A program made the position numbers and the translations under genes. A stretch of 64,000 nucleotides of DNA from Thalassotalea ponticola (GTDB lineage Bacteria > Pseudomonadota > Gammaproteobacteria > Enterobacterales > Alteromonadaceae). Below, in pieces: positions 3,774 to 46,384 of this stretch. The notes beneath the pieces are model-generated. The model was not told where the DNA came from. It ran no database searches and was given only the letters and a program-made list of their open reading frames with translations. The stretch spans positions 1,240,001 through 1,304,000 of the forward strand of contig NZ_CP166871.1 of assembly GCF_041379045.1 (NCBI RefSeq). Direction: 5' to 3'. Every line of letters starts with the position of its first letter. Positions within the stretch are counted from its first letter, which is position 1.

Positions 3774-3825
3774 TCCGAGACTAATCCGCTAAACCTAAGT
3801 AACGATTGAATAAGGAATAATAATA

Positions 3826-13450: not shown

Positions 13451-13451
13451 A

Positions 13452-14652: not shown

Positions 14653-15207
14653 GTGCGATCTACCATATCAACAGTCGTTATAACCACCGCAGCTTTATCT
14701 ATTATGCTCGCGTTATTTTTTACCAATGTGGCGTCACTTGCCGGGTTTACTGTGGTGCCAACTGAGAAATTTGACCAATTGACTGCATCGCATGATGCGA
14801 TTGAAAAATTAAAGCTCAACCACGCCAAGCAAAAAACGCTTACCACAGAGCACTTTTTTAATCGCACCAGTCAAAAAGTCGGTCAAACTGCGTTGTCTGC
14901 ACTGACCATTGGCGCGCAAGCAGTTGTCGGGACATTAACCTATATGGAGCTAAATGAGTACTGTGAGGAGAAGCAACGTTTGTCCGAGCAAGAAAATTTA
15001 CTGTTTAACATCAACAACGGCTTTGACTTTGATACCTGTCTTCGCTTTGCCAAAAAGGATTCTATAGACATCAAAGAGCAAGCGTGGAATATGGTTAAGA
15101 AAACCGCAAATGTTGATGTAGTAGCTGCTGGTGAAGACATAAAAACAAGTCAAAAAGAACTCGCCAAGCAGTTAAAACAAATAGAGTCGCTATATAAACA
15201 GCCCTAA
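14653..15207 (+). CDS. Hypothetical membrane-anchored protein
   Basis: I do not recognise this 184-residue protein. I chose the GTG start at 14653 because GAGG (14641-14644) is spaced 8 bases from it; a GTG at 14644 would add three residues but overlaps that site. The N-terminus has one hydrophobic helix (ISTVVITTAALSIMLALFF, about residues 5-23), so it is probably anchored in the inner membrane with the rest in the periplasm. A second weakly hydrophobic stretch (about 80-97) contains TIGAQAVVGTLTYMELNEYC. The remainder is charged and helical, with two Cys and a Lys-rich C-terminus that could form a coiled coil. It stands alone, with a long gap upstream and the convergent cyanophycinase gene downstream. 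Confidence 0.6.
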   Translation: MRSTISTVVITTAALSIMLALFFTNVASLAGFTVVPTEKFDQLTASHDAIEKLKLNHAKQKTLTTEHFFNRTSQKVGQTALSALTIGAQAVVGTLTYMELNEYCEEKQRLSEQENLLFNINNGFDFDTCLRFAKKDSIDIKEQAWNMVKKTANVDVVAAGEDIKTSQKELAKQLKQIESLYKQP

Positions 15208-15304
15208 TTCGAAACAGGTATATTGACCTTTCAGACTGAGCAGAGCAAGACACTAAAATATATCAGCGCTGCTCTGCTACCTATGTAGTGGCTAATGGGT
15301 GTGT

Positions 15305-27291: not shown

Positions 27292-27426
27292 TCCGTATAG
27301 GCGTAAGATTATTGTTTCTTGAATTGTAAATCAACTAAATTGTATCGATTAGTCACACAAACGGTGCGATGACGTAAACGAAACAGTGCAAAAATAATAA
27401 TGAAGCATATTACAATAGGAGATATT

Positions 27427-28683
27427 ATGGCTTCGTCGCTCCCTTCAGGTTCCGTGCAAACCTCAAACGCCTCAAATTCAGGGTATGGTTTTGCGTTAAC
27501 ATCATTAACCTCATTGTTTTTTATGTGGGGTTTTATTACGTGTCTAAACGACATCTTAATTCCACATTTAAAAGGCATCTTCGACCTGTCATACGCGCAA
27601 GCGATGCTAGTTCAATTTTGCTTTTTCGGCGCATATTTTATCGTCTCTATTCCAGCTGGTATGTTGGTTAAAAAAGTCGGCTACCAACGCGGTATTGTCG
27701 CCGGTTTAATCGTTGCGGCTTTGGGCTGTTTGTTGTTCTATCCAGCGGCTTCAATGCACAGCTACCCAGTGTTTTTATTTGCGTTATTTGTATTGGCATC
27801 TGGTGTGACCATTTTACAAGTATCTGCAAACCCGTATGTTAGCTGTTTAGGCCGACCAGAAACGGCATCGTCACGCCTTACGTTAACCCAGGCGTTTAAC
27901 TCATTAGGAACCACCGTTGCACCATTTTTTGGCGCCTGGTTTATTCTAAACGAGGCGGTGTTGGCGACGGCATCGGCACAAGAGAAAGCTGCGTCAGTGC
28001 AAATGCCATACGTTGGCTTAGCCGCTGCGTTTTTGGTTTTGGCTGCTATTTTTGCATGGTTAAAACTTCCTCACATTGAAGACGAACAAGAACACGATAC
28101 CACGTCAAACGCTGTTGGTAGCGCGTGGGGTTACTCTCACCTTGTACTTGGTGCTGTGGGTATTTTTGTCTACGTAGGTGCTGAAGTTGCCATTGGTAGT
28201 TTCTTAGTTAACTATTTCCACGAGTTAGACATCAAAGGTCTTGAAACCGAATCTCAAGCGGCTAAGTACATCGCTTACTACTGGGGCGGTGCCATGGTAG
28301 GTCGCTTTATAGGTGGTGTTGCGATGCAAAAAATCGCCGGTGGTAAAGCGTTGGCGTTTAACGCTGTTGCAGCCATTGTGTTATTGGCCATTACTATCAC
28401 CCAAGATGGCGAAGTAGCTATGTGGTCGATTCTATTGGTTGGTTTGTGTAACTCAATTATGTTCCCAACCATTTTCTCTTTAGCGGTAACCGGCCTAGGT
28501 CGTCACACATCGCAAGGCTCTGGTATTCTTTGTCTTGCAATCGTTGGTGGTGCAATTATACCAGTAGTACAAGGTCTATTAGCTGACTCAATTGGTGTGC
28601 AGCTATCATTCGTACTACCTATTTTCTGTTACGCGTTTATTGCTTACTACGGCCTAAAAGGCTCTGTACCGAAGCACGCTTAA
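27427..28683 (+). CDS. MFS hexose transporter (GluP/FucP type)
   Basis: A 418-residue, 12-helix inner-membrane carrier. ATG 27427 is chosen because AGGAG (27417-27421) precedes it; an upstream ATG at 27400 would swallow that site. Family motifs are [23 protein letters not shown] (shortened: [14 protein letters not shown]), [21 protein letters not shown] (QVSANPY) and [18 protein letters not shown] ([10 protein letters not shown]). These belong to the glucose/galactose/fucose:H+ symporters. It is 29 bases before a GH3 beta-glucosidase gene and would import the glucose that enzyme releases in the periplasm. Confidence 0.92.
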
Positions 28684-31597: not shown

Positions 31598-32650
31598 ATG
31601 AAACGATTTTCGTCACTGTTTTTGTTGAGCAGTGTGACTTTAGTCTCAGCACACGCGGCTGATTTCGATGAGGCATCGGCAAAGCAAGTCTACATACTCA
31701 ACGCTGAAGATGCACAAGAGAAACACGACGCTTGGCAATTGGTTTGGCAAGATGAGTTTAATAACGCGCAAATTGATGATTCAAAGTGGTCGTTTGAAGT
31801 TAATTGTTTTGGCGGTGGTAACAACGAACAGCAGTGCTATACCGACCGCAAAGTGAATGCCTATATCGACAATGGCCAGTTAGTGATTAATGCGCAACAA
31901 GAAACGTACAGTGGTCCCGCCTTGCACGATGACCATCCATCGTACGCACCCACGACACTACGAGAGCTTCCCTTTACCTCGGCGAGGTTACGCAGTAAAG
32001 GTAAGGGCGATTGGCGATATGGGCGCTTCGAGATTCGCGCAAAATTGCCGTTTGGTCAAGGTAGCTGGCCGGCAATTTGGATGTTGCCAACCGATTGGGT
32101 GTACGGCTCATGGGCGAGTTCAGGTGAAATCGATATTATGGAAGCGGTCAACTTAAAAGCGCCTTCAGATGCGCCAGGAGAAGAGCCAAATACACCGGAA
32201 AGTCGCATTCACGGGACCTTACACTACGGTGGCGTAGCCCCTGATAATGTGTACACAGGTGTTGGCGTCAAACTACCAAACCTCGCCAATCCTGCCGATG
32301 GTTTTCACACCTATGCTGTTGAGTGGGAGCAGGGCGAAATTCGCTGGTATGTCGACGATATTCACTTTGCGACTCAGACCGCTGAACATTGGTATAGCAA
32401 AACCAAAGACGCGTTAGGTGATTGGCAAATGCGCGATAAAGATGCGCCATTTGATCAACGTTTTCACCTGCTGCTTAATTTAGCCGTTGGCGGGGCGTGG
32501 CCTGAGAACGTCAATAACAAAGGTATCGACAACAGCGTATTTCCACAGCAAATGCGCGTTGATTACGTGCGCGTTTACCAGTGCAGTATAGACCCTGAAA
32601 CAGGAAAAGGCTGTGCTCAAATTAACCCTCACGCCAAGCTTGTCAAATAA
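31598..32650 (+). CDS. Secreted GH16 endo-beta-1,3-glucanase (laminarinase)
   Basis: A 350-residue enzyme with a signal peptide (cleavage after AHAA, about residue 21) and a single GH16 domain. The catalytic motif GEIDIME has nucleophile E177, D179 and acid/base E182. Also present are WQLVWQDEFN at the start of the fold, SWPAIWMLP, and DYVRVYQC at its end, all typical of laminarinases. It should cut internal beta-1,3 links in laminarin. The AAGGA ribosome site is 7 bases before ATG. It is flanked by a terminator upstream and a LacI operator downstream. I find only a degenerate GCGCTA core before its own start, so its control is less clear than its neighbours'. Confidence 0.94.
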   Translation: MKRFSSLFLLSSVTLVSAHAADFDEASAKQVYILNAEDAQEKHDAWQLVWQDEFNNAQIDDSKWSFEVNCFGGGNNEQQCYTDRKVNAYIDNGQLVINAQQETYSGPALHDDHPSYAPTTLRELPFTSARLRSKGKGDWRYGRFEIRAKLPFGQGSWPAIWMLPTDWVYGSWASSGEIDIMEAVNLKAPSDAPGEEPNTPESRIHGTLHYGGVAPDNVYTGVGVKLPNLANPADGFHTYAVEWEQGEIRWYVDDIHFATQTAEHWYSKTKDALGDWQMRDKDAPFDQRFHLLLNLAVGGAWPENVNNKGIDNSVFPQQMRVDYVRVYQCSIDPETGKGCAQINPHAKLVK

Positions 32651-32974
32651 GTTGGATAATTTTGTGAAAAGTATGGAAATGTAAATTAAAATATGTCATT
32701 TTAATTCGTGGTAAGCATGCTGTTAATACATTGTTGTATGGGCGATTCAGCAGAGAAACTGATCTGTTGTGAGACATGCTAAGTAATGTTTTGGTTGCAA
32801 CACTATGACAATAAATGTAAGCGCTTTCATGTCGATTTGGCATATGATTGTTACGATTCAAATACGAATTGTATGCAAGGCCTGTGATCAGGTCATGTTG
32901 AATGCGCTGAGCTTTTGTTGAAAGGTTGCTTCACAACATGGATGTTTTATAACCAATATAAGAAGAGAGAGACA
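32651..32974. other. Intergenic region before the GH16 lipoprotein
   Basis: No gene is seen in 324 bases. The operator at 32816-32829 lies about 145 bases before the start at 32975, so promoter and a fairly long leader should be here. I see no clear terminator after the preceding GH16 gene. Confidence 0.5.
32816..32829. promoter_or_regulatory. LacI-type operator before GH16 lipoprotein
   Basis: TGTAAGCGCTTTCA differs from the perfect palindrome TGTAAGCGCTTACA at one position. It is the reverse complement of the site at 27278, which supports a common regulator. Confidence 0.78.
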
Positions 32975-35860
32975 ATGAGAAGAACAAAACTCACAATGAT
33001 GTCTGCCGTAATGGGGGCGAGCTTTATTGGCTTGACCGGCTGCGTTGGCGATTCCTTAGATGCTGATGTCGATAGCGTCTTGGGAAAAGAGCCACCGTAT
33101 TTTACCAGCCAAGCAATGGTGGAAGCAAAAGAAGGCCAGGAATATGTTTATACAATCGGTGTCGACGATGAGGATAGTGTTGATTTAACCATATCTGCAG
33201 ATACGTTACCGAGTTGGTTAACGTTTGACAGTTCAACCAATACACTACGCGGTACACCGTCAGTTGATGATATTGGCGAACACGTGGTTGTTATTTCAGT
33301 TACAGACGGTGAAAGTACGCGTAAACAAGAATTTGTTATCATAGTCGTCGAAGGTGCTGGTGACTGGGTCATGGTCTGGAGTGATGAATTTGACGGAACC
33401 AGCTTAAACGCGGACAACTGGAACGTTGAAACGGGCGATGGGTCGCAATACGGCCTAGTTGGCTGGGGTAACAATGAATTGCAGTGGTATCAAAACGAAA
33501 ACATTACCGTTGAAAACGGCAATCTAGTGATAACCGCGAAACAAGAAGCATCAAACAATTATAATTACACTTCTGGTCGGATGCGCTCAGATGGCAAAGT
33601 TGATATTCAATATGGACGTATTGAAGCACGCATTAAAGTGCCAGGAGGTCAAGGTTTGTGGCCAGCATTTTGGATGTTACCAACAAACAGCCAGTACGGC
33701 GGATGGGCAAGTGGTGGTGAGATCGACATCATGGAAGTGTTTAGTGCCACACAAGATAATAATAATGATGCTCAAGGAACTCTGCATTACGGTATGGCTT
33801 GGCCACTGAATGTTTATTCTTTTGCCAAAGCTGGACAGCCGGTCTTGGGCGATTATCACCTTTTTGCAATTGAGTGGGAAGAAGATGAAATTCGTTGGTA
33901 CTTAGACGATTTACATTATGGTACCATTACCTCTGAAACTTGGTGGAGCTACTACTATAAAGACCAAGAAACAGGGTATGTGGGCGACAGTGCTGCACCG
34001 TTTAATCAGCCCTTTCACTTATTGCTAAATGTTGCCGTTGGTGGCAACTTGCCTGGCTCACCTAATGCCGACACCGAATTTCCAGCGCAAATGATGGTAG
34101 ACTACGTGCGAGTCTATGAGTGTGAAACCGATCCGGTTACTGGCAAGGGGTGCGCGGCCAACGTTAACCCAGAGGTAGAACTACCGGCAGCAGACAATTT
34201 TTATGTTGCTGAATACCCATTATTTATTGATGGTGACGATAAATTGTCATGGCAAGTTCAATCGGCATCAGTTGAGCGAGCGCTACAAGCCGTAGTTGGC
34301 TGGGACAACAATGGTGCGATATCATTAACACAACCAGATCTTGGCAACGAGCGTGGTACTGTTCTTGAAATAAATACCGGTGACAAAGGCAATGTGTTGA
34401 TCAACGCGGTCGACGGTGACACCTTGTCATTGTTTGGTATGGGCAACTCGGCTCGTCCATGGGAGTTACATGCTGGAGAGTTGAAGTTTGACTTATTTAT
34501 CGACAGCACCGTAACACCAGATGAGAGTCAAATCTTTATTAAAATGGATTCAGGCTACCCTAAACTTGGTGTGGTAACCCTCAATGTTGCGGACCTTAAA
34601 AAAGATATGTGGCAAAGTGTATCAGTGAAAGTGAATGACATTATCGCTACGCCAGGTGAGCAACCGTTAAACACCAATGACGTGTTAAATCCGTTCATTA
34701 TTGAATTTAGCGGCGCAGCAAGGGTTATGGTCGACAACGTGACTCTAAAATGTGGTCACAAGGATGATAACGGATGTGGTATTGCTCCACCGCCAATCAA
34801 TGTAGATACCGAGACGCTCGATGTTTTTGTTGACGAAGTGAACAGCGATATTTGGACTAACGGTATTGGCGCATGGGATACGGCATCAGGTCAAGATTAT
34901 TTTGATGGCGCGAATGGCTTTGTTCAATGGCAAACTGTTGCTGAACAAGACCGAGGTGATGTGTTACAGGTAACTTTTGGCGGTGCAGACGCAGATGGCC
35001 TGTTATATATTCAGTCAGGGCAACCAGTTGACTTGAGTGCGTTCAGTGATGGCAGTTTGGTGTTTGACTTGAAAGTGCTCGATTACGCCGACACCGCCAG
35101 TGGCATGAGCTTTAAAGTTGATTGTGTATACCCATGTACAACGGGTGATCAAGTTTTAGGCGTTGTTGCAGATGGCGTCTGGGAAACCATTCGCGTTCCG
35201 GTAAGTACGTTAGTCAGCCAAGGGTTAGATATAACCTCTGTGAATACAGGCTTGGTTATTTATCCTACCTGGGGAGATCAAAATAACGTCACGTTCATGA
35301 TCGATAATATCCGCTGGGAACGTACTGCTAGCGTAGGTGTTGAACCACCCGTTGAGCCGCCTGTCGTAGAAGGTGATGTGGTGATTTTCTCTGAAGAAGT
35401 TGACCCGAATTGGTCGTTTTGGGATTGCTGTGGTGGAGCGACCATATCTCAGCAAGTGGACAGTGATTACGGCAATGTATATCAAGTTGATTTTGCTGGC
35501 CCACCGACTGTCGCAGGCGTAACCGCGGAATCAGCAATTGATGTGTCATCGCTTGTCAATGGTACACTTGAGTTTGATTTGAAAATGTTATCGGCACCAA
35601 CAGATGACAGTGCACAGTGGCTACTGAAAGTAGAAAGTAGCAGTGCGGATCTGTTTACCGAAATTGCTTTATCAGATAGTAACGAAGGTGTTGATCCTAC
35701 CCTAGGGGAATGGCAACACTATACTTTCTCGTTTGCAACACTTGAATCGGGTGCTTTGAATTTGTCAGATGTCAAAATCATTCTTGTATTCCCGAGCTGG
35801 AGCAAAGCAAATGGTGCGAGTTATCAAATTGACAATATTGTCTTCAAGGCGAACGAATAG
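32975..35860 (+). CDS. Multidomain GH16 laminarinase lipoprotein with three C-terminal binding-like modules
   Basis: A 961-residue protein. ATG 32975 is chosen because an A/G-rich AGAGAGA precedes it and a lipoprotein signal (FIGLTGC, Cys about 23) follows at once; an ATG 60 bases upstream gives a non-signal N-terminus. A cadherin/He_PIG-like domain (about 30-112: LPSWLTFD, LRGTPS) leads into GH16 (about 115-395) with catalytic GEIDIME, E249, D251 and E254, and DYVRVYEC at its end. Three ExoP/galactose-binding-like beta-sandwiches follow (about 405-590, 610-770, 785-960), each ending in a MIDNI- or VDNV-type strand. These probably bind glucan. It is likely the surface-held endo-laminarinase. 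Confidence 0.93.
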   Translation: MRRTKLTMMSAVMGASFIGLTGCVGDSLDADVDSVLGKEPPYFTSQAMVEAKEGQEYVYTIGVDDEDSVDLTISADTLPSWLTFDSSTNTLRGTPSVDDIGEHVVVISVTDGESTRKQEFVIIVVEGAGDWVMVWSDEFDGTSLNADNWNVETGDGSQYGLVGWGNNELQWYQNENITVENGNLVITAKQEASNNYNYTSGRMRSDGKVDIQYGRIEARIKVPGGQGLWPAFWMLPTNSQYGGWASGGEIDIMEVFSATQDNNNDAQGTLHYGMAWPLNVYSFAKAGQPVLGDYHLFAIEWEEDEIRWYLDDLHYGTITSETWWSYYYKDQETGYVGDSAAPFNQPFHLLLNVAVGGNLPGSPNADTEFPAQMMVDYVRVYECETDPVTGKGCAANVNPEVELPAADNFYVAEYPLFIDGDDKLSWQVQSASVERALQAVVGWDNNGAISLTQPDLGNERGTVLEINTGDKGNVLINAVDGDTLSLFGMGNSARPWELHAGELKFDLFIDSTVTPDESQIFIKMDSGYPKLGVVTLNVADLKKDMWQSVSVKVNDIIATPGEQPLNTNDVLNPFIIEFSGAARVMVDNVTLKCGHKDDNGCGIAPPPINVDTETLDVFVDEVNSDIWTNGIGAWDTASGQDYFDGANGFVQWQTVAEQDRGDVLQVTFGGADADGLLYIQSGQPVDLSAFSDGSLVFDLKVLDYADTASGMSFKVDCVYPCTTGDQVLGVVADGVWETIRVPVSTLVSQGLDITSVNTGLVIYPTWGDQNNVTFMIDNIRWERTASVGVEPPVEPPVVEGDVVIFSEEVDPNWSFWDCCGGATISQQVDSDYGNVYQVDFAGPPTVAGVTAESAIDVSSLVNGTLEFDLKMLSAPTDDSAQWLLKVESSSADLFTEIALSDSNEGVDPTLGEWQHYTFSFATLESGALNLSDVKIILVFPSWSKANGASYQIDNIVFKANE

Positions 35861-36145: not shown

Positions 36146-36850
36146 TTATTGGAACTGAATAAATAGATTGGCAGTCAATCGCCCCGTATTGACATCTGCT
36201 GTTATGTCATGCTGTTCAGATACCAGGGTAGAGTGAAGAATATGACCAGGGTAAATTACAAGTCGGTTAACTTTGTAGTCAATGCGATGGTACAAATCGA
36301 ATATACCATGACTTTGGGTGTAATAGCCTGAAAGAGATTGGTTGTTTTGATCTATGTCGTGTTGTAACGATGTAAAGTATCGATCTTTGCGCGTTGGATT
36401 GATCCGTTCGTAACCCGTATTGCGGTGTCGAAATAAACCGGTTGCCCCATGAGGCCCGTCGTTTAAATAATGTAAGATGGCAAAAAAATTAGGGTTGGGA
36501 GTGTCAAAGTGCGGAATGCACTGCATCGGGCTTAGTTCGTTACCGTGTTTGGTGATAAGAGAGAAATGACAGCCTTTATTAATCACCGCGCGTTGAGGTG
36601 AAATTTTATAAACTTTGCGTATACCTGAAATGACTGCACTAAGGGTTTCTTTAATGTAACTGTCAGGTAACGGGCTACGCAAACCTGGGTAAAATGCCGT
36701 GTCCAGATCACTGAACACAGCTTGGTTAGCTTGTTGCTTAATATCCTCTAAGCTAAGGGCAAAATTATCAATGACAATCAACGGGATTTGTTCATTACCG
36801 ACACTGCTCACTTGTACGTGACATTGGGAATTGACTTGATACTGCCCCAT
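36146..36850 (-). CDS. DUF6445-family protein, 2OG-Fe(II) oxygenase-like
   Basis: A 234-residue protein with no signal peptide. It resembles the DUF6445 family found next to tryptophan-halogenase genes in TBDR loci. It has the metal-site pattern of 2-oxoglutarate/Fe(II) oxygenases: PHFD (H114, D116), a late His in YPGHILHS (H203 or H206) and a downstream Arg (R224). The function is unknown; hydroxylation of a protein or peptide is possible. It starts 6 bases after the halogenase gene and ends the cassette. Confidence 0.75.
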   Translation of the reverse strand: MGQYQVNSQCHVQVSSVGNEQIPLIVIDNFALSLEDIKQQANQAVFSDLDTAFYPGLRSPLPDSYIKETLSAVISGIRKVYKISPQRAVINKGCHFSLITKHGNELSPMQCIPHFDTPNPNFFAILHYLNDGPHGATGLFRHRNTGYERINPTRKDRYFTSLQHDIDQNNQSLSGYYTQSHGIFDLYHRIDYKVNRLVIYPGHILHSTLVSEQHDITADVNTGRLTANLFIQFQ

Positions 36851-36856
36851 AACGGT

Positions 36857-38377
36857 TTAGGCCTGCATTTTTTGTTGTTCGCGAGTGTCTTTGTCATTTG
36901 CTGGGCAATAATGATTTATAAAATCAGTATGCTTTGGCCAGCTCGCAACTTTTTTCGCCACATGACTTTTTATTTTCTCTAAAAATGCCCGTAATTCGTC
37001 ATCGCTCATCTTATCCACTATGGGGTGATATTGCTCCGGTATTAACCCCTGACCCAACATAACTTGCACCCAAGATGTTTCGCCGAACAATTCCTCAGCT
37101 TTCTTAAAAATGCGACCTGAAGCTTTAAATAACGCCATCCGATGTGTTAACGAGTCAGGTATCTCCATTGTTGCACAGTAGCGCCAGAAATCAGAATCAC
37201 GGCGCTCTGTTAGGTGATAATGCAAAACAATAAAGTCACGGATATTGAGCATTTCCTCCTCAGTTTGCTTGTTGAATTCTTGTATGTCTGAATCGTTTAT
37301 TCCTGTGTGAGGGAACATCTGCAACAAGCGTACAATTCCGCGTTGGAATAAGTGAATACCGGTTGATTCCAGTGGTTCAATAAAACCGGCGGACAACCCT
37401 ATCGCAATACAGTTCTTGTTCCAATGCTTGCGGCGAGTACCTGTTTTGTACTTTATCACACGTGGCTCGTTAATCGGTTCCCCCTCAATGTTATCAAGTA
37501 GGGTCTGTATCGCTTCCTCATCCGTCATATATTTTGAACAGAAGACCAAGCCATTGCCCGTGCGGTTTTGTAATGGTATGCGCCATTGCCAGCCGGATTC
37601 GCGAGCAATTGAACGGGTGTATGCAACTGGCTCACCAACGGTTTTAGTTTGAACCGCTATTGCACTATCGCACGGCAGCATATGACTCCAGTCGTCATAG
37701 CCTGTATGTAGCGCTTCTTCAATAAGTAGACCTTTAAAGCCGGTACAGTCAATGAATAAATCACCTTCAATACGCTTTGAGTTATCTAAATCTAGGGACG
37801 TAATATGACCACCTTCAGGGCACAAGTTTACCTTGTTGATCTTCCCTTCAACCCGCTGACAGCCATGTTGATAAGCCAAAGATTGTAAAAATTTTGCATA
37901 AAGCCCTGCGTCTAGGTGATAAGCGTGATTTCTGTCTTGGTTTGGCATTACCGCGAATCGCCCTTGGCGACAAGCTAGGTGCTCACTGCAATAGTCTCCA
38001 ATTTCACTGACCCAACCTTTTTGCAGACCTTTTAGCCAGAAGTGCTGAAAACCACATGCCCAGCAATCGCGACCGAGATAGCCAAACGAGTGAATATAGT
38101 CTTTATCTACGTCTCGCCAGTTTTCAAAAGATATACCCAGTTTAAATGTCGCATTGGTGGCAGCCATAAATTCGGCTTCATTGATACCAAGTAAGTCGTG
38201 TAGGAGGTGCAGGGTAGGAATTGTTGCCTCGCCAACGCCAACGGTAGCAATGTGATCTGATTCAACAAGAGTGACATTAATCGCATTGCCTAATAGCTTG
38301 GACAATGACGCTGCGGTCATCCATCCAGCAGTACCGCCACCGGCAATGACGATATTTTTAACGGGGTTGTTATTCAT
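36857..38377 (-). CDS. Flavin-dependent tryptophan halogenase-family protein A
   Basis: A 506-residue protein of the Trp_halogenase family. The FAD motif is GGGTAGW (13-19). The catalytic Lys is at K79 (TFKLGISFENW), the halogenase signature WQWRIP at 263-268, and the conserved active-site Glu in EPLESTG is E337. All residues known to matter in PrnA-type halogenases are present, so it is probably active. The family halogenates tryptophan or other indoles using FADH2 from a separate reductase; none is encoded here. The substrate in TBDR-linked members is unknown. It overlaps the cupin gene by 4 bases. Confidence 0.9.
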   Translation of the reverse strand: MNNNPVKNIVIAGGGTAGWMTAASLSKLLGNAINVTLVESDHIATVGVGEATIPTLHLLHDLLGINEAEFMAATNATFKLGISFENWRDVDKDYIHSFGYLGRDCWACGFQHFWLKGLQKGWVSEIGDYCSEHLACRQGRFAVMPNQDRNHAYHLDAGLYAKFLQSLAYQHGCQRVEGKINKVNLCPEGGHITSLDLDNSKRIEGDLFIDCTGFKGLLIEEALHTGYDDWSHMLPCDSAIAVQTKTVGEPVAYTRSIARESGWQWRIPLQNRTGNGLVFCSKYMTDEEAIQTLLDNIEGEPINEPRVIKYKTGTRRKHWNKNCIAIGLSAGFIEPLESTGIHLFQRGIVRLLQMFPHTGINDSDIQEFNKQTEEEMLNIRDFIVLHYHLTERRDSDFWRYCATMEIPDSLTHRMALFKASGRIFKKAEELFGETSWVQVMLGQGLIPEQYHPIVDKMSDDELRAFLEKIKSHVAKKVASWPKHTDFINHYCPANDKDTREQQKMQA

Positions 38378-39390
38378 CGTTTCAGCTTCTCAAGTAATTG
38401 TGCACGAATTTTTCGTGCGGTTAATTCGTCCATCGGTGTTTTTAACATCCCTTGAGCATCTTCAGGCAGGTGGGCAGAGTCTTGCTCTTGATGGTCGAAA
38501 ATGTAGTGTTCAAATATACTCTTCCACGCTTGTCGTTGTGCATAGGGAAGGTTGCGTAAATTGAGCATTGCTAACAATAACGCGTTGTGAGGTCGGCCCA
38601 TATAAGCAGGGGTATCTCGCCACCAGTGGGTTACTAAAATATTTAGCCCTGACAGACCTTCGACATGGTGCCACCACATGCTCGGTAAGAAAAGGGCATC
38701 ACCGGGATCAAGCTCGGCAACTTGCGCGTGCGCTAATGCTGTTTCAAATTTTGGGAACTTGGCAAAATCGGGATTATCAAAATCGACCATTGAAATATCT
38801 TGCCCTCCCGGAGCAAACTCCATCGGTCCGGTATATAAGTTTTTGACCTGCTCTGGAGGAAACAAGGTAAAACGGCGCTTCCCCACGACATTACAAGCAA
38901 TATTGAGAGGGAAATCGTAATGTGCAGCAATTTTGCTTTGGTTACCAATCCAGATACTCGTCAACGGTTTATGACAGTCAATACTTATCGGATGTTGCTC
39001 TTTAAATCCCGGTAGGAAATGGCTAACTTCGGTAGACCCGACATACATGGTTGGTGGTGACGGATCGTCAATGTGCTGAAGTAACTTAGCAAGAACGGGT
39101 TTCAAGTCGACTTTAGCCGCTCGATAATTAAAGCCATCCAAAGAGTCATTGTAAAACACTCGGCCTTTTGTCGAGACATCACCATAACACGCATTAACGG
39201 CTTTTCCCTGATAAAATTGTTCAATATAGGCGCAGGCAGCAGACGCTGATTTAAGTCCTTCTTTTACAATGGGCCAGTCGTCTGCAAAGCCTTTTAACAA
39301 TAGGGGTTGATCGGACTCAATCACAAATTGTGGTATGTTTTTAGCGGTCACACCCGTTATTTGTTTTACTTGCGTATCGATATTCAACAT
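38374..39390 (-). CDS. Cupin-like (JmjC/Cupin_8) domain protein
   Basis: A 338-residue cytoplasmic protein with the Cupin_8/JmjC double-stranded beta-helix. The iron-site motif is HYD (H157, D159) in IAAHYDFPLNIACNVVG, and the second His is in MWWHHVEG (H241 or H242). GKRRFTLFPPEQ is also typical. The relatives are 2OG-dependent protein hydroxylases and related proteins found beside halogenase and SapC genes. It probably hydroxylates a protein or peptide side chain, but the target is unknown. Coding overlap with halogenase A implies translational coupling. Confidence 0.86.
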   Translation of the reverse strand: MLNIDTQVKQITGVTAKNIPQFVIESDQPLLLKGFADDWPIVKEGLKSASAACAYIEQFYQGKAVNACYGDVSTKGRVFYNDSLDGFNYRAAKVDLKPVLAKLLQHIDDPSPPTMYVGSTEVSHFLPGFKEQHPISIDCHKPLTSIWIGNQSKIAAHYDFPLNIACNVVGKRRFTLFPPEQVKNLYTGPMEFAPGGQDISMVDFDNPDFAKFPKFETALAHAQVAELDPGDALFLPSMWWHHVEGLSGLNILVTHWWRDTPAYMGRPHNALLLAMLNLRNLPYAQRQAWKSIFEHYIFDHQEQDSAHLPEDAQGMLKTPMDELTARKIRAQLLEKLKR

Positions 39391-39425
39391 ATGCTAAACC
39401 TTGTGTTACTGCTGTCGACGTTACT

Positions 39426-40160
39426 TTAGGTCGACGAGTTAATCAGCGAGTTTTTCTTATCAAGCAGGCTGTTAATATTACCTTGTGACGCGATTTGCAT
39501 GTAAATCGCTTGTAGATAACCTTTCTCTTTTAGTTCCTGCAATGTTTCGATAGCAAGCTCGTTAAGTCGCTCTTCATTGATGGTGTAAAAACCCAACATT
39601 TGATGCTGACTTTGATCGTTTAGCGTGACATCTAAACTGAACGGCTCAAGTAGGTTTAATTCGACTAAGCGTTCACAAAAGGTTAAGCCATCTAAAGCGC
39701 CAAAGTGCAATGCTTCTAACATACTAGCAGTGCGGTCCAAAAACTCACTGTTGCCACCGAACTCAAGAAATAATGGTTCGCCTTGTTCGGTATTGACTCG
39801 AGGATTGTCCAAATCAATACTCAACATTCTATTTTCTTGTTCTTGTCCGTCGACTTCAATGGTTTGGCGAGCAATTAAAAATGGGTGTCTAAGTACTGAC
39901 ATAGGAATGTAACGGGCATGCCAACCACTGTCATCGAGGAATAAGTTTTCATTTTCGGCAAAACCAAATAGCGCTGTGCAAATAAATTTACCCGTGCCTG
40001 GGTCTTTAGTGAAAAAGATAGGGTAGTAAGCTTGTGCACTGCGAAACTCCTGAGGAAAAGTCATCGCATACCACATATTGTCGCCATATTCGGCCCCACG
40101 CTTGGTAATGATTTTTAAATTTTTGTGATCAACGCTATTTAGCAGGGCATGATTTGCCAT
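39426..40160 (-). CDS. SapC-family protein
   Basis: A 244-residue protein with no signal peptide. I chose ATG 40160, which has GGGAG 7 bases upstream; a TTG five codons earlier overlaps that site. Family features are MWYAMTFPQEFRSAQAYYPIFF (shortened: FPQEFRSAQAYYPIFF) near residue 30 and the LFLDDSGWHARYIPMSVLRHPF core (GWHARYIPMSVLRHPF). SapC proteins are named after a Campylobacter S-layer gene, but the family's function is not known in this setting. Its constant pairing with halogenases and cupins suggests a partner or substrate-presenting role. Confidence 0.87.
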   Translation of the reverse strand: MANHALLNSVDHKNLKIITKRGAEYGDNMWYAMTFPQEFRSAQAYYPIFFTKDPGTGKFICTALFGFAENENLFLDDSGWHARYIPMSVLRHPFLIARQTIEVDGQEQENRMLSIDLDNPRVNTEQGEPLFLEFGGNSEFLDRTASMLEALHFGALDGLTFCERLVELNLLEPFSLDVTLNDQSQHQMLGFYTINEERLNELAIETLQELKEKGYLQAIYMQIASQGNINSLLDKKNSLINSST

Positions 40161-40192
40161 GTTTTTTACTCCCAATAACCAGCTGTGCGCAA

Positions 40193-41746
40193 CTAAATCT
40201 TTGCAAAGCCGTACATTTTTATCTTGTTAATTAGCACTCGATTACTCTCTAAAGTTCGCATCAAGTGTTGTGTTTGTTGTATGTTGTCGTTAAAAAAACG
40301 ATTGGCCATCGTCGATTTGTCTCGACGTTTTTGCCGTATAGGTAATTGTGTTTCAAACCCCATTCCATACAAAATATATTGGAAACTGGCTGCGGGAAAC
40401 AGTTCATCAGTGTGATGACTGTCATAACCAAATGGCGTCTGAAACTGCCATAATTGCAATAGTTCTTGTAAGGGCTGAGGGATTGAGCTCGAGTCTCTGT
40501 TATCCCGCCAATAGGCGCTATCGTCTCGTTGAGACAGTACATAGTGTAATTTCAAAAACTCGATGACTCGTTGCCAACGGTGGGTAAACTTGTCATTAAA
40601 GCGCTTGGCCGTTATGTCCATAACAACACGATTGGCAGGTAATTGTTCAGCGATCATTTTCGCAGATAACTCAATAAGCGCTAAGGCAGAAGCTTCTAAC
40701 GGTTCGATAAAACCGGCAGCCATACCCACGGCAACGCAGTTTTTATGCCAAAATTTAGCACGGTAACCAGGGTTAATTCTTATCGATCGAAGTTCGACTT
40801 CATCGGCGCTTTGACCAAGAGAAGGGCGTATGTAGTTTCGCAAATCCTTTGCGGCCTCTTCATCACTAATATGAGCACTGGAATATACGTGACCGACACC
40901 ACGGCGAGAGGGCAAGCCGATATCCCAAATCCAACCACAGCGCTGTGCTGTTGAGATTGTATGGGAGGCAATATCCTCATTTTCATCGCGATACGGTACG
41001 TGAACTGCCAAAGCGCGGTCGTTGAATAACACATGCTTTTGCTCAATAAAATCAACTCCGTAATGCTCACCGAGTAATAGGGATTTCAGTCCGGTACAAT
41101 CAATAAATAAGTCACCTTCAACGTCTTTCCCCGAAGCCGTTGTTACTGACTTTATATCCCCGTTAGGGTGATTGTTAATGCGAGTCACATGGTCGAGAAT
41201 GTGTGCAACGCCTAAATTATGGCAACAATGACGTTGGAGTAGCTGAGCAAATTTTGCAGCATCTAGATGATATCCGTAATTTAGATTGAACGAATATTCA
41301 GGCGTAGAAATTTGCTTAGGCGCTTTGCCGTGTCGGCAAATGTGACTTTGGCTAGTCGTAGCATCAGCAAAACTAACTTGCTGTTTATGGGGCTGCCAAT
41401 ATTCGGCTATATTGGTTTCATGAAACCCTGCAGGCATGGTGAACGGGTGAAAGTAGCTATCACCATTACCGTGTTGCCAATTGCGAAATTCTGAAGCCTG
41501 TTTGAAACTGGCGTCGCACTCAAGGATAAACTCACTCTCGCTGATCCCCATATTCTTGAGCGTATGGCGCATAGATGGCCAAGTTCCCTCACCGACGCCA
41601 ATGGTTGGCACATCGGGTGATTCAATTAACGTGACGGCAATGCTGGTTTGCTTATTTGTTTGGTATTCACTGGCGAGTATACCGGCAGTTAACCACCCAG
41701 CACTACCGCCACCCACAATGACAATGTTTCTTACTTCTTGCTTCAT
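40193..41746 (-). CDS. Flavin-dependent tryptophan halogenase-family protein B
   Basis: A 517-residue Trp_halogenase-family protein, diverged from protein A. The FAD motif is GGGSAGW (12-18). The catalytic Lys is K82 (SFKQASEFRNW) and the active-site Glu is E351 (EPLEASA). The signature WxWxIP reads WIWDIG at 272-277, with Gly in place of Pro. That may alter the halide/substrate tunnel. It is the first gene of the cassette; the promoter should lie in the 170 bases upstream, where a weak LacI-like half-site occurs. Confidence 0.88.
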   Translation of the reverse strand: MKQEVRNIVIVGGGSAGWLTAGILASEYQTNKQTSIAVTLIESPDVPTIGVGEGTWPSMRHTLKNMGISESEFILECDASFKQASEFRNWQHGNGDSYFHPFTMPAGFHETNIAEYWQPHKQQVSFADATTSQSHICRHGKAPKQISTPEYSFNLNYGYHLDAAKFAQLLQRHCCHNLGVAHILDHVTRINNHPNGDIKSVTTASGKDVEGDLFIDCTGLKSLLLGEHYGVDFIEQKHVLFNDRALAVHVPYRDENEDIASHTISTAQRCGWIWDIGLPSRRGVGHVYSSAHISDEEAAKDLRNYIRPSLGQSADEVELRSIRINPGYRAKFWHKNCVAVGMAAGFIEPLEASALALIELSAKMIAEQLPANRVVMDITAKRFNDKFTHRWQRVIEFLKLHYVLSQRDDSAYWRDNRDSSSIPQPLQELLQLWQFQTPFGYDSHHTDELFPAASFQYILYGMGFETQLPIRQKRRDKSTMANRFFNDNIQQTQHLMRTLESNRVLINKIKMYGFAKI

Positions 41747-41977: not shown

Positions 41978-44900
41978 TTAGAAAGTGTAACGAGCACCTA
42001 AGCTGTAACGCGCACCTTGTTGGGCTACGTTAAGAACTTGGTATTTAGTACGACCGTGCTTGCGACGGTATTCATTAGTAATGTTGATACCTTCGAAGAA
42101 GACAGATAGACCTTCGACGTCAGCAAAGTCATAGCTGATGTTAAAGTCTAACTGCTCGTATTCCTCAACAAACGTTGGGTTGGCACCTGTGTCATCACCT
42201 TTACGCTCTAAGTAAGCGTCACGCCAGTTGTATGCAAGACGAGCAGCAATACCATACTTCTCATAGAAAACAACTAAGTTAGCTGTGTCTGAGATACCTT
42301 CTTGTGCACCGTCATTTGAACCGTACGTCGCAGTATTGTCGTAAGCGCCACCAGTGATAACCATGTTGTTGTAGTCGTCACCAGCATCAACTAAGGTGTA
42401 GTTGGCAAATAAACCAAAGCCTGATTCACCAAATACGTGCTGCGCTGCAAATTCAAAGCCATCGAAGTTATTTTCAATGTCATCATTTACAGGTACGTTA
42501 ATTAAGAATTCAACCAATTCGTCATCAGCAGCGCCTTCAATGATTAGCTTACCAGTTTCATCAAAGTAAACTTCTTCGTTACCAATGAAATTCTCAGCAA
42601 TGTAATCACGTTGCGCATCTGCGTCACCACCAACTGCTGCAACCGCTTCGTCGTACTTAGGACCATCAACAGGGTTGTTGATGTTAAATAGCGTTTCAGC
42701 GATTTGGCCATTCGTAATCCAGTTTGTTACGTCTTTCTTGAAGTAACCAACTGCCGCGTAGCTTGATTCACCGTAGTAGTATTCTAGTGATAAGTCGAAG
42801 TTTTTAGACTCAAGAGGTAACAAGTCAGGGTTACCTGAGTTACCGCTCGCACCACCGCGGTTGAATTGTGTCCCAACCGTTGTACCACCTTGTAGTGAAC
42901 CGTAGCCGGCACGACCAATGGTTTCACTGTACGCTGCGCGCGCAATGATGTCATCGGTTAGCTCTAGGTTAAAATTGATGTTAGGCAATAAGTGATCGTA
43001 AGAACCCGATTTTGACAAGCCAGCTTGACCGTCGCGAATTAGAACGATTTCGGTAGCACCTTCCCATCGTGCACCGTTATAAGTTGGTACAATCGAAGTA
43101 GAATCAACTTCAGTTTCTTCGTAACGAAGACCGATGTGAATATCAAATGGCATTACACCAATTTCACCTTCGTAATTCCACTGCGCGTAAACAGCGGTCA
43201 CTTCTTCTTCAACATAGCGGTCTGTGTCAGCTGCATAATTCGTTGAAGCACAGAAATTTGAACCACAGTCACCTGCACCACCAGTTGGTCCGTAATTTGC
43301 TTCGGCAAAATCACGTAACTGGTTGAAATCCCATGCGAAGAAGTAGTCTACAATTTCAAAGCCGTCAGGACCTTCAGGGTGATCTTCAAAATAGCCACCG
43401 TCTACATCATCAAAGCGATCGTGAATGCTTACCTTGTCACCAGCGATGTCTGCTAAGTCACCAGCTGCACCTACACCGCCCCAGTCGTTACGTTGCACTT
43501 GAACTGCACGGTTATGCTTGCTCGCTGTCATCATGCTAGCACCAAAGTCGATGCTACCAAATTCGTCAAGGTCTAACTTACCGTTGATCTGTGTTTGGTC
43601 AATTTCAGAGCGGTTGTCGTCGTTGCGGAAGAACGACCCCGTTACTAAGTAATCAGCTTTGCTAACGGTGCTCGAACCTTGTACAGCCAATACTGGTAAA
43701 TCACCAGTGAAATCGGTAGCTGCTTGTGAGCGAACAAAGGCTGCAGTCGACAACACGTTAGAACTACCGTAAGGGCTATTTGGAGTTTCTTCGGCATCTG
43801 ATGAGTGATGATCGATTTCTAGCCATAAGCGGTCGTTTACTTGCCATTCGAAGTTAAAGCCAATTGAGTCAGCTTTAGCTTTGGTAGCAGAGCTTGATAC
43901 AGCCATTGATAAATCTTGGTTACCAATACCATTAGCTGCGTAATCTTCTTCATAGAACAGCGGAGAAGAAATCGGACCGTCTGTCCACACGTTCTCTGAA
44001 GGAGCAAAGGTATACCATGCTGATACTTCGTTGAATTGACGGTCAACTTCGTTGTTCATGTGGGTGTAATCAACAGTGAACGTCATGTTGTCATTTGGTG
44101 CGTATTGTAATACCAATTGACCATTCAAACGTTTGCGTTGTTGCTCACCGAATTGATAGATGGTTGTTTGTGGAACAGAATAAATTTCATCTTGAGTTGG
44201 GTCAGGACGGTTAACTTGGTTTTCGTATGGAACACCACCCCAATCGGCGTTAGACGCTGACCAATCTTGGTTTACACGAGATGGGAAAGTACGCCAGCCT
44301 GTTCCAACATTAGCTTGTTGGTTACCACTGTCACGCTCTGCGTAGCTTGCTGCAAGTGAAATACCAAAACTGTCGTCTAAGAATGTGTTTGAGTATAAAC
44401 CTGAGATTTCAGGTGTTACGCTACCTTCGTCTGTTGATGTGTCATCTAAACCTTTTACACCAATACTGCCACTCATGCCCGGCTTGTTTAGGGGACGATG
44501 GGTAAGAATATTGATGGTTGCACCAATACCACCTGTTGCAATGCTTGCATCACTGGTTTTGTATACTTCAGCACCTGACACAAGTTCTGATGCGATGTTA
44601 TCAAAGTCAAACGAGCGATCACCAGTACTTGTTGGCATTTGACGGCCGTTTAATAGTACTAAGTTACGGTCTGGACCAAAACCACGAACCGTTACACGGC
44701 TACCTTCACCGTTGTCGCGGTCAATAGCAACACCAGATATACGTTGTAGTGATTCTGCAAGGTTTGTATCTGGGAACTTACCGATATCTTCGGCATTGAT
44801 TGCTTCAACGATACCAGAACTCGAACGCTTGATATCCATTGCTTTTGTTAATGAACCACGGATACCCGTTACTTCAATAACTTCTACGTCTTCTTCTAAG

Positions 44901-45001
44901 GCAGCTCCGTCTTCCCCGTGTGCAGGAAGAACAACAGAGGCACCCAAAATCAAAGAAAGGCTCGAAGCCAACTTTGTTTTGTTGAACTTGTAAGACTTCA
45001 T
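41978..45001 (-). CDS. TonB-dependent receptor, laminarin/beta-glucan uptake (inferred)
   Basis: A 1007-residue outer-membrane receptor. The signal peptide cleaves after PAHG (about residue 29). The TonB box IEVTGIRGSL is at about 43-52, the plug includes FPDTNLAESLQRISGVAI and VTVRGFGPDRNLVLLNGRQ (shortened: VRGFGPDRN), and the barrel ends RYSLGARYTF. A perfect LacI-type operator lies 40 bases before the start. The surrounding GH16, GH3 and GH1 genes point to laminari-oligosaccharides as ligand. The halogenase cassette follows on the same strand after a terminator. Confidence 0.92.
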   Translation of the reverse strand: MKSYKFNKTKLASSLSLILGASVVLPAHGEDGAALEEDVEVIEVTGIRGSLTKAMDIKRSSSGIVEAINAEDIGKFPDTNLAESLQRISGVAIDRDNGEGSRVTVRGFGPDRNLVLLNGRQMPTSTGDRSFDFDNIASELVSGAEVYKTSDASIATGGIGATINILTHRPLNKPGMSGSIGVKGLDDTSTDEGSVTPEISGLYSNTFLDDSFGISLAASYAERDSGNQQANVGTGWRTFPSRVNQDWSASNADWGGVPYENQVNRPDPTQDEIYSVPQTTIYQFGEQQRKRLNGQLVLQYAPNDNMTFTVDYTHMNNEVDRQFNEVSAWYTFAPSENVWTDGPISSPLFYEEDYAANGIGNQDLSMAVSSSATKAKADSIGFNFEWQVNDRLWLEIDHHSSDAEETPNSPYGSSNVLSTAAFVRSQAATDFTGDLPVLAVQGSSTVSKADYLVTGSFFRNDDNRSEIDQTQINGKLDLDEFGSIDFGASMMTASKHNRAVQVQRNDWGGVGAAGDLADIAGDKVSIHDRFDDVDGGYFEDHPEGPDGFEIVDYFFAWDFNQLRDFAEANYGPTGGAGDCGSNFCASTNYAADTDRYVEEEVTAVYAQWNYEGEIGVMPFDIHIGLRYEETEVDSTSIVPTYNGARWEGATEIVLIRDGQAGLSKSGSYDHLLPNINFNLELTDDIIARAAYSETIGRAGYGSLQGGTTVGTQFNRGGASGNSGNPDLLPLESKNFDLSLEYYYGESSYAAVGYFKKDVTNWITNGQIAETLFNINNPVDGPKYDEAVAAVGGDADAQRDYIAENFIGNEEVYFDETGKLIIEGAADDELVEFLINVPVNDDIENNFDGFEFAAQHVFGESGFGLFANYTLVDAGDDYNNMVITGGAYDNTATYGSNDGAQEGISDTANLVVFYEKYGIAARLAYNWRDAYLERKGDDTGANPTFVEEYEQLDFNISYDFADVEGLSVFFEGINITNEYRRKHGRTKYQVLNVAQQGARYSLGARYTF

Positions 45002-45108: not shown

Positions 45109-45496
45109 CTAAAGTAGAGTAAATAAAGATTCAATTCAACCTTTTTTTACGCTTTGATTGCATTTAGAAACGCGTTTTCATATTAATGAAACAAGTTTTT
45201 AGGAAAAAATTATAATATTAAACAGTTGGTTAGTTTCTTGTTGGTGTTTTTATGTACGTTTAGGCGGTTTTTAACCTTAAAGCAGTATTTGTAGGTACCG
45301 ATATGAATGGAAACCTCGTTTTTGTCGGTTTTATCGTCGATTTGTTTGGTGTTCGATTTATAATCTTTGTGTAATAAAAACGCTATTATCTAGAGTCTAA
45401 CAACAGGTTATGGCTGTGTGCTTGACACTCACGCGCTTGTTTATGTTTAATGTATCTTCTGTGCGTGTAATGCCCATACTCAATCTAGGAAAACGA

Positions 45497-46384
45497 ATGA
45501 ATAAAACTTGCTCAGGTAAACGGTTAGGCAAACTCTGTCGAAGACCCATTGTAACCGTCTCGAAAACGCAGTTTGATGTGTTAATAAATACTGTATTAGC
45601 AAGGTTAAAATTGGTTTCAACTGTTTGTCTTTCTATGACTGTGCTGTCTTTGGTAAGTACGCAAGCAATAGCTAAATCCGCAGAGGGGTTTGTTGCCCTT
45701 TATAGCGAACAAACGATACAAATTGATGGCAATGCCAGCGAAGTTATTTGGCAAAGTAGCCAGTGGTACCAATTGAACCATGATATGTTAGCTAATTATC
45801 CGGCAACCGACGATTTTTCCGGTCGCTTTAAAGTCGCTTGGGATGAAAACTATTTGTATTTGTGGGTGGAAATGAGCGATGACGTGCTGTTTGATCAACA
45901 TGCAAATCCGTTGTTTAAATATTGGGACGATGACGCGTTGGAAGTGTTTATTGATGAGGATAGGTCAGGCGGGACGCACCAGTATGATCACAATGCTTTT
46001 GCTTATCATATTGCACTTGATCATCAAGCAATCGACATAGCCGGTAAAAAAGACGACGGTACGCCAAACTTTGTGGCGTTAAATGAGCACGTTAAAAGTG
46101 TGTGGCGTCGAACCGATGTGCGCGCTAATGGTATTGTTTGGGAAGTGGCATTAGAGATTCACAATGATTCGTTTGATCACCGAGTCACAGCGAACCGACA
46201 GGCTTCTAGAGTCGCATTAACTGCAGGCAAAGTATTAGGCTTTATGTTGGCCTATTGTGATAACGATGGCAGTAAGCAGCGCGAACACTTTTTAGGGTCC
46301 ACTTATATTACGCCCGTCAACGGCGACCAAAACTTGGGCTATAAAACAGCGGACGTATTTTCAACATTGTTGTTAAAAAAATAA
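45497..46384 (+). CDS. Exported CBM9-like carbohydrate-binding protein
   Basis: A 295-residue protein. ATG 45497 is chosen for the TAGGA site 7 bases upstream. The hydrophobic segment LVSTVCLSMTVLSLVSTQAIA (about 39-59) is an unusually late signal or anchor after a long basic N-terminus. The mature part is a CBM9/DOMON-type sandwich (IDGNASEVIWQSSQW, FKVAWDENYLYLWVEMSD, WDDDALEVFIDEDRSGG). Such domains bind sugars or are stand-alone lipid-linked binding proteins. No catalytic domain is present. It is 140 bases before a GH3 gene and probably starts the GH3/ADP-ribosylglycohydrolase operon. Confidence 0.82.
   Translation: MNKTCSGKRLGKLCRRPIVTVSKTQFDVLINTVLARLKLVSTVCLSMTVLSLVSTQAIAKSAEGFVALYSEQTIQIDGNASEVIWQSSQWYQLNHDMLANYPATDDFSGRFKVAWDENYLYLWVEMSDDVLFDQHANPLFKYWDDDALEVFIDEDRSGGTHQYDHNAFAYHIALDHQAIDIAGKKDDGTPNFVALNEHVKSVWRRTDVRANGIVWEVALEIHNDSFDHRVTANRQASRVALTAGKVLGFMLAYCDNDGSKQREHFLGSTYITPVNGDQNLGYKTADVFSTLLLKK

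Follow-up and report, generated by a model that had tools for sequence, protein, structure and literature searches.

A TBDR-headed cassette of two halogenase-family proteins, SapC and two oxygenase-like proteins in Thalassotalea ponticola may modify exported proteins

A 64,000-nucleotide stretch of the Thalassotalea ponticola genome (contig NZ_CP166871.1, positions 1,240,001 to 1,304,000; hereafter the window) carries a TBDR gene followed by genes for two proteins of the flavin-dependent halogenase family (HalA and HalB), SapC, an FIH-like cupin and a DUF6445 protein. We propose, with somewhat less than even confidence, that this cassette serves to modify, in the cytoplasm, a protein destined for export, most likely the TBDR whose gene heads the cassette. 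More tentatively still, the halogenation and hydroxylation of outer-membrane transporters may be general in bacteria, with SapC-family proteins recruiting exported chains in the cytoplasm and the glycan-importing TBDR being decorated before it passes through Sec; this might also be the natural role of BrvH, Xcc4156 and 2pyx.

An earlier note had described five genes on one strand in the order HalB, SapC, cupin, HalA and DUF6445, with overlaps or short gaps, downstream of a TBDR, and this layout is borne out (Table 1): the cupin and HalA genes overlap by 4 bp, and 6 bp separate HalA from DUF6445. The note had also seen no signal peptides, and when the N-termini of the five cassette enzymes were read by eye none was recognised. 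SapC probably starts near 40160, since a database copy (P0121) has 244 aa; the call in the window begins at a TTG at 40175. The neighbouring genes (two GH16, two GH3, GH1 and CBM9) suggest that the TBDR is a beta-glucan receptor.

Table 1 The TBDR-headed cassette and its surroundings (positions in the window)
Feature	Position	Strand	Evidence
GH1	25845-27173	(-)	
MFS transporter	27400-28683	(+)	
GH3	28713-31325	(+)	
Two GH16 glucanase genes, convergent neighbours	31598-32650, 32915-35860	(+)	
DUF6445, 234 aa	36146..36850	(-)	PF20043, 230 bits
HalA, flavin-dependent halogenase family, 506 aa	36857..38377	(-)	PF04820, 614 bits (cut-off 21)
Cupin, Cupin_8 / FIH-like 2OG oxygenase, 338 aa	38374..39390	(-)	PF13621, 221 bits
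SapC, ~244 aa, starting at either 40160 or 40175	39426..40160	(-)	PF07277, 237 bits (cut-off 28.9)
HalB, flavin-dependent halogenase family, 517 aa	40193..41746	(-)	PF04820, 413 bits (cut-off 21)
Terminator-like hairpin in the TBDR-HalB gap, 12-bp stem, 10-nt loop	41920..41953	(-)	Intrinsic-terminator-like
TBDR, TonB-Xanth-Caul class, 1007 aa, cassette head	41978..45001	(-)	Plug and barrel Pfam matches; TIGR01782, 622 bits (curated cut-off 310)
CBM9 protein, divergent from TBDR	45410-46384	(+)	
GH3, divergent from TBDR	46525-49164	(+)	

The link between halogenases and TBDRs is strong both locally and genome-wide. A TBDR lies within 5 kb of 36 of the 40 sampled A-type halogenases (35 found by profile, plus one in locus L096 that was recognised later); none was seen near the remaining four, one of which is cut by a contig end. 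The next commonest neighbour family occurs at 15/40 loci and resembles the GH3 of the window, a likeness drawn from the start of the sequence and not from a Pfam scan. As the most constant partner, the TBDR is thus the candidate target. The sample comprises about every third row, counted by eye, of a score-ordered list reaching down to about 537 bits, and HalB types are missing from it; 40 of about 50 rows were fetched, the others lying in part at contig ends or in stretches already taken and in part being omitted. By eye, sugar-locus-like families recur around the sampled halogenases. Across 199 genomes of the phylum, a TIGR01782 TBDR was present in 21 of 23 with a halogenase and in 11 of 176 without, a comparison uncorrected for kinship; TIGR01782 copies were scored up to about 13 per genome in the family search and up to about 4 in the phylum search. 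The earlier note had made its reading depend on co-occurrence with TBDRs beyond chance, and these counts support such a linkage. TBDR and halogenase sequences also diverge together, for HalA with a Mantel rho of 0.47 (n=39; 0/500 permutations as high) and for HalB with 0.40 (n=21; 2/500), both values including species relatedness.

The cassette order itself recurs across genomes. Among loci fetched with SapC (the best 80 of 117 confirmed, a set biased to close SapC orthologues) a TBDR stands in front in 79/80, and the six-gene order TBDR-HalB-SapC-cupin-HalA-DUF6445 (TBSCAD) is intact in 50/80, which argues for conservation beyond chance. Some cassettes (L109, L118) also carry a methyltransferase-like gene. 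The separate modules TBDR-HalA, TBDR-HalB-SapC, TBDR-cupin and TBDR-cupin-SapC also exist, and the same genome holds a minimal TBDR and HalA pair in a locus, L007, of amylase/pullulanase type (enzyme type judged by eye). Judging by such minimal pairs, SapC, cupin, DUF6445 and HalB can be dispensed with, unlike the TBDR. Terminator-like hairpins were found in 64 of 129 TBDR-cassette gaps, against a mean of 0.3 and a maximum of 2 in dinucleotide shuffles; a hairpin in this place would suit a plentiful substrate that is transcribed from the same promoter as enzymes needed in catalytic amounts. The same 129 gaps hold 162 ORFs of at least 15 aa, 16 of them with a Shine-Dalgarno-like site, and no short peptide is co-conserved beyond close relatives in the 60 of 162 ORF rows inspected.

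HalA and HalB belong by sequence to the flavin-dependent halogenase family, and halogenation is their predicted activity. GxGxxG is the flavin-binding motif of these enzymes and WxWxIP a further halogenase motif. HalA has GGGTAGW and WQWRIP at these positions; HalB has GGGSAGW and WIWDIG, the latter differing in the last residue. The catalytic Lys and Glu that the earlier note had assigned (K79 and E337 in HalA, K82 and E351 in HalB) are all present, and among the relatives collected here the Lys is kept in 140/141 A-type and 91/91 B-type proteins and the Glu in 139/141 and 91/91, respectively. The PDB entry nearest to HalA is 6y1w (Xcc4156), followed by 9luq and 6frl (BrvH), and that nearest to HalB is 2pyx. 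Over 523 aa, 2pyx shares 97.5% identity with HalB of a Shewanella frigidimarina TBSCAD cassette (L058). Xcc4156 shares 63% with HalA of a further TBSCAD cassette (L093), and BrvH 57% with HalA both of L120, in whose stretch no TBDR was seen, and of the TBDR-HalA locus L123.

The Fe(II)/2OG-type His/Asp sites noted earlier in the cupin and DUF6445 are likewise present and conserved. In the cupin, the HxD...H residues (H157, D159, H241) are kept in 99-100% of 97 relatives; its closest solved relatives are the protein hydroxylases FIH and JMJD5, and the alignment with FIH (E 2e-22) matches HYD and WWHH, that is, the HxD and the second His. DUF6445 is modelled with a 2OG-Fe(II) oxygenase fold and a conserved HxD..H..R, its H114, D116, H206 and R224 being kept, after rounding, in 81/81 relatives. 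Its AF2 model (pLDDT 95.7) gave 16 PDB matches at E <= 0.001 in Foldseek, including HygX, OGFOD1 and PHD2; 14 are named 2OG oxygenases and two are uncharacterised, with TM-scores to the query of 0.22-0.52.

SapC, for which no match to any solved structure was found, occurs in 67/199 genomes of the phylum. Outside TBDR cassettes, export-type neighbours (SecA-like, HlyD, outer-membrane efflux, ShlB, TPS-adhesin, RTX and PPIC-rotamase) accompany it in 13/33 loci and none were seen in 20/33, with 0/10 at distant control genes. For this comparison 36 loci were fetched, hand-chosen to spread over families, and neighbours picked by eye for size and orientation were scanned in 33, leaving out L232, L239 and L243. 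SapC is not TBDR-specific, since the TBDR profile built here, which overlooked the L096 TBDR, a member of a different class, had no match at 36/36 of these loci.

We infer the following route, in which the TBDR as substrate, SapC as adaptor, the residues changed and the benefit are all conjectural. SapC would bind the unexported TBDR chain, or help it towards Sec, and pass it on to the four enzymes, namely the two halogenases HalA and HalB, the FIH-like cupin, and DUF6445. Aromatic side chains would be halogenated and others hydroxylated. After export, the modified receptor would fold in the outer membrane, and there the modifications may tune its glycan binding or its stability.

A Trp motif co-conserved in the TBDR, which the earlier note had suggested looking for, did not emerge: none of the 24 columns tested (Trp in 10-95% of 71 receptors) follows halogenase linkage on the TBDR tree. 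Over 10 independent pairs, the best column changes the same way as halogenase gain or loss in 3.0 and the other way in 0.8; the corresponding values are 2.3 and 0.5 for W926, 1.0 and 0.6 for W507, and 0 and 0 for W646. W507 was considered as specific to HalA-linked receptors (weighted 0.74 vs 0.15) and rejected, because its position falls within gappy loops and it does not pass the test over independent pairs. In 91 TBDRs of SapC+cupin cassettes, which are largely orthologues, neither W507 nor W646 varies, and W329, W339, W386 and W926 (numbered as in the window's receptor) are close to invariant. Cassette-linked receptors have no consistent Trp surplus over sister TBDRs, the signs being mixed, and the receptor groups are alike in Trp content. 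Tyr is lower in receptors with halogenase and SapC (38.7 vs 45.1 per 1000; p 0.003, uncorrected, also for phylogeny). In one sister pair (L204 vs L172), Trp/Tyr are scarcer and Phe is more frequent in the linked receptor, the opposite of what was expected. The 60 TBDR loci come from the top of a separate list, favouring receptors without a listed halogenase nearby, and are therefore not a random sample; the label 'unlinked' is debatable for the L113 receptor (12862-15648), behind which lie another TBDR and then HalA. The earlier proposal of a protein-modifying system thus keeps the TBDR linkage, the FIH/JMJD5-like cupin, the DUF6445 fold and the proximity of HalA to Xcc4156 on its side, and loses the co-conserved Trp.

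It is unlikely, in our judgement, that the halogenase substrate is a small aromatic molecule arriving with the glycan (an indole, a phenol or an algal aromatic), the TBDR linkage then reflecting shared regulation in glycan loci. Such a substrate would suit the cassette's place in a glycan locus and the sugar-locus-like surroundings of other halogenases, and Xcc4156 and BrvH do use free indole in vitro while Trp is not accepted, according to the parts of their reports consulted. The low activity on indole, however, led the BrvH authors, in the same material, to doubt it as the natural substrate. TBDR and HalA are moreover paired in loci with differing glycan enzymes, of beta-glucan type in the window and amylase/pullulanase type in L007, and with families other than the TBDR reaching at most 15/40 halogenase loci no common small-molecule pathway is seen.

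A protein target other than the TBDR, either an exported protein of the locus (a glucanase or lipoprotein) or some shared partner, for example TonB, seems similarly improbable. It would accommodate the variety of exported proteins and of export machines beside which SapC is found, and the failure of any single TBDR Trp to fit; however, no other family recurs like the TBDR, and a shared partner leaves the co-divergence with the adjacent TBDR unexplained, though co-inheritance of the operon would account for it. We regard as quite improbable a division of targets, with SapC and the 2OG oxygenases working in TBDR export while the halogenases produce a compound for signalling or defence: the modules do occur separately, but all are headed by a TBDR, and the full order in 50/80 related loci suggests one process.

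If the TBDR is indeed modified, glycan importers of marine bacteria would be chemically edited with halide from seawater, and the widespread SapC family would gain a role in handling exported proteins. Halogenation is, to our knowledge, not known for membrane transporters, and this would be the first halogenated one. BrvH and Xcc4156 are described, in the text accessible to us, as orphan halogenases without a known natural substrate; with relatives of 2pyx and Xcc4156 sitting in TBDR cassettes, orphan halogenases gain a testable candidate in the adjacent receptor. The portions of full text searched, including PMC5945002, PMC8269204, PMC7336383, PMC12615548, PMC4943207 and PMC6374484, with subscription papers mostly outside the scope, contain no description of the cassette, and a term look-up found neither 'halogenase' nor 'SapC' in PMC1790865 and PMC2996990.

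Each component has known counterparts. The cupin aligns with FIH and JMJD5 across the metal-binding core, but is bacterial and lies in a TBDR operon. PF07277 is named after the SapC of Campylobacter fetus. There, sapCDEF belongs to an S-layer locus, as far as the available text of PMC4943207 goes; cassette SapC shares the family name and, at the 13 other loci above, the family also lies near export genes, whereas cassette SapC travels with halogenases and a TBDR. Xcc4156 and BrvH, of the same halogenase subfamily as HalA, were published as single enzymes and are here placed beside TBDR cassette enzymes; the word TonB is absent from the main texts of the papers checked on halogenases of this type. 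For Xcc4156, the sections of PMC7336383 consulted report an open active site that does not take or stabilise free Trp, and its authors propose larger or peptide substrates. 2pyx, labelled only 'Tryptophan halogenase' in the PDB, acquires a cassette context. The RiPP halogenases MibH, SrpI and MppI are likewise flavin-dependent and act on peptides, in the case of MibH and SrpI on Trp (PMC12615548, consulted in part). Their systems have a short precursor peptide, whereas none is shared beyond close relatives among the inspected ORFs of the TBDR-cassette gaps. The flavoprotein maturases QhpG, LodB and GoxB modify Trp in a partner protein; HalA and HalB match the QhpG and LodB profiles weakly, and HalB that of GoxB too, all far below the cut-off (20-37 bits vs 240-400).

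Behind a TonB-dependent receptor (TBDR), the T. ponticola genome (3.35 Mb, one contig, with the window at 1240001-1304000) carries on the minus strand the genes of a B-type halogenase (HalB), SapC, a Cupin_8 protein, an A-type halogenase (HalA) and DUF6445, closely spaced or slightly overlapping. GH16, GH3, GH1, CBM9 and MFS transporter genes surround this cassette, from which a beta-glucan locus may fairly be inferred. The nearest relatives of its SapC are Thalassotalea proteins (81% and 76%). The genome encodes three PF04820 halogenases, two SapC copies and one DUF6445. Its third halogenase lies directly behind a second TBDR, at a locus (L007) with amylase- and pullulanase-like genes (by eye) and no match to SapC, cupin or DUF6445; a halogenase stands behind two of the three TBDRs passing the TIGR01782 cut-off.

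The five-gene cassette behind a TBDR, described in the earlier note, is real: among 80 loci found with a SapC alignment (the best 80 of 117 confirmed), 50 have the full six-gene order TBDR-HalB-SapC-cupin-HalA-DUF6445 (49 plain, one with an extra TBDR), HalB is absent in 14 and DUF6445 in nine, and the remaining seven are variants, split genes or contig-end cuts. The TBDR is in front in 79/80, the exception (L012) ending near HalB. Median gaps are 274 bp (TBDR-HalB), 51 (HalB-SapC), 12 (SapC-cupin), 38 (cupin-HalA) and 6 (HalA-DUF6445). The cassette enzymes belong to known families, and the unit they form is recurrent and strongly conserved. DUF6445 is the rare member (5/140 genomes of the class), and the module types seen are TBDR-A, TBDR-A-A, TBDR-B-A, TBDR-SapC-A, TBDR-B-SapC, TBDR-cupin and the full set. 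Degenerate halogenase-family proteins found behind a TBDR at four loci are possibly non-catalytic partner subunits, and a methyltransferase-like gene at two others is a possible further modifying enzyme.

Features of the window and of the compared loci (L-numbers, own coordinates)
Feature	Location	Strand	Remarks
TBDR, 1007 aa	window 41978-45001	minus	head of cassette
Third TIGR01782 TBDR, then pullulanase-type protein	window 900-8115		no halogenase behind
ADP-ribosylglycohydrolase-family gene	window 49263-50705		directly downstream of glucan-locus GH3
Second SapC of genome	L008:9611-10342		between TetR regulator and BadF-type kinase
Degenerate halogenase-family protein	L089:9392-10753	minus	between two HalA genes; only part of profile matched
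Degenerate halogenase-family protein	L091:9391-10653	minus	between two HalA genes; only part of profile matched
Degenerate halogenase-family protein	L092:9403-10905	minus	between two HalA genes; catalytic Lys and Glu replaced
Degenerate halogenase-family protein	L101:6264-7829	minus	between two HalA genes; Glu replaced
Methyltransferase-like gene	L109:9501-10190	minus	between HalA and SapC
Methyltransferase-like gene	L118:9488-10219	minus	between HalA and SapC
Two HalA genes	L120:6319-12814		no TBDR match within stretch covered
HalB-type gene	L227:8941-10626		genome (G303) without TIGR01782 match at 1e-60 or SapC match
SapC neighbour, SecA-like	L206, L215
SapC neighbour, HlyD	L213
SapC neighbour, outer-membrane efflux protein	L211, L220
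SapC neighbour, PPIC rotamase	L216, L217, L221, L241
SapC neighbour, RTX protein	L222
SapC neighbour, TPS adhesin	L224
SapC neighbour, ShlB	L234, L236

The TBDR linkage of the halogenases was borne out. A TBDR was found by profile within 5 kb in 35 of 40 sampled halogenase loci, 33 of which share a same-strand run with it, and the L096 receptor, missed by the profile, raises the linked loci to 36/40; no TBDR was seen at L110, L116 (contig end), L120 and L121. The L120 HalA pair adjoins a 284-aa protein that matches no Pfam family, and is divergently oriented to the genes for DUF6445 and a TPR-methyltransferase. Among 59 genomes of the family, PF04820 occurs in 55, SapC in 53 and TIGR01782 in 59, and halogenase numbers correlate with those of TBDRs (Spearman 0.63, TBDR numbers being at-least values) and SapC (0.78), kinship uncorrected. 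Of the 199 phylum genomes compared, a halogenase (1e-50) was found in 23, a TIGR01782 TBDR (1e-60) in 32 and both in 21 (Fisher p 2e-18, kinship uncorrected). A tree of 71 TBDRs requires at least 11 changes of halogenase linkage, therefore linkage has been gained or lost repeatedly by receptors.

By eye, neither the cassette enzymes nor SapC show a signal peptide, whereas the TBDR, which accompanies them most constantly, is an exported protein. In the simplest model, the TBDR chain would be modified in the cytoplasm, ahead of Sec, with SapC as its putative client-binding factor. A terminator-like hairpin 3' of the TBDR (64/129 TBDR-cassette gaps) would hold enzyme amounts under that of the receptor. 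TBDR and halogenase sequences co-diverge, but this could also be obtained from operon co-inheritance alone. The weak point of the TBDR-modification model is the target residue. Six TBDR Trp are near-invariant among 91 receptors of SapC- and cupin-containing cassettes (W507 and W646, window receptor numbering, in 91/91). The co-conserved Trp motif for which the earlier note proposed to look did not emerge: none of 24 Trp columns follows halogenase presence across the receptor tree, and Trp is not consistently enriched in comparisons of sister receptors. Either the site varies with receptor class, or another kind of residue is the target, or the substrate is something other than the TBDR. We tentatively retain the TBDR as the best-supported substrate candidate, at somewhat less than even confidence.

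SapC is more widespread, occurring in 67/199 phylum genomes, 25 of them with TIGR01782 (kinship uncorrected). The TBDR profile built here had no match in any of 36 SapC loci outside halogenase cassettes, and neither TBDR nor halogenase was matched in the 20 kb around the second T. ponticola SapC (L008). At one of the 36, L219 (with L225-L226, G324), SapC adjoins an open frame of >6600 aa, and a distant 939-aa PF04820 protein, seemingly without the catalytic Lys (by eye), lies ~3.5 kb off. Neighbours, picked by eye and not blind, were scanned at 33 of the 36 loci: in 13 an export-type gene adjoins SapC or lies one gene further, and in 20 none was seen; among 10 more distant genes in ten such loci, none was export-type. 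The frequent company of protein export genes is a lead.

The most useful new points are this export company of SapC and the kinship of orphan halogenases to the cassette enzymes. The former agrees with the Campylobacter fetus sapCDEF genes, which belong to the S-layer locus of that species. As to the latter, characterised orphan halogenases neighbour the cassette enzymes in sequence space, and one of them, 2pyx, is nearly identical to a cassette member (97.5% to HalB of L058).
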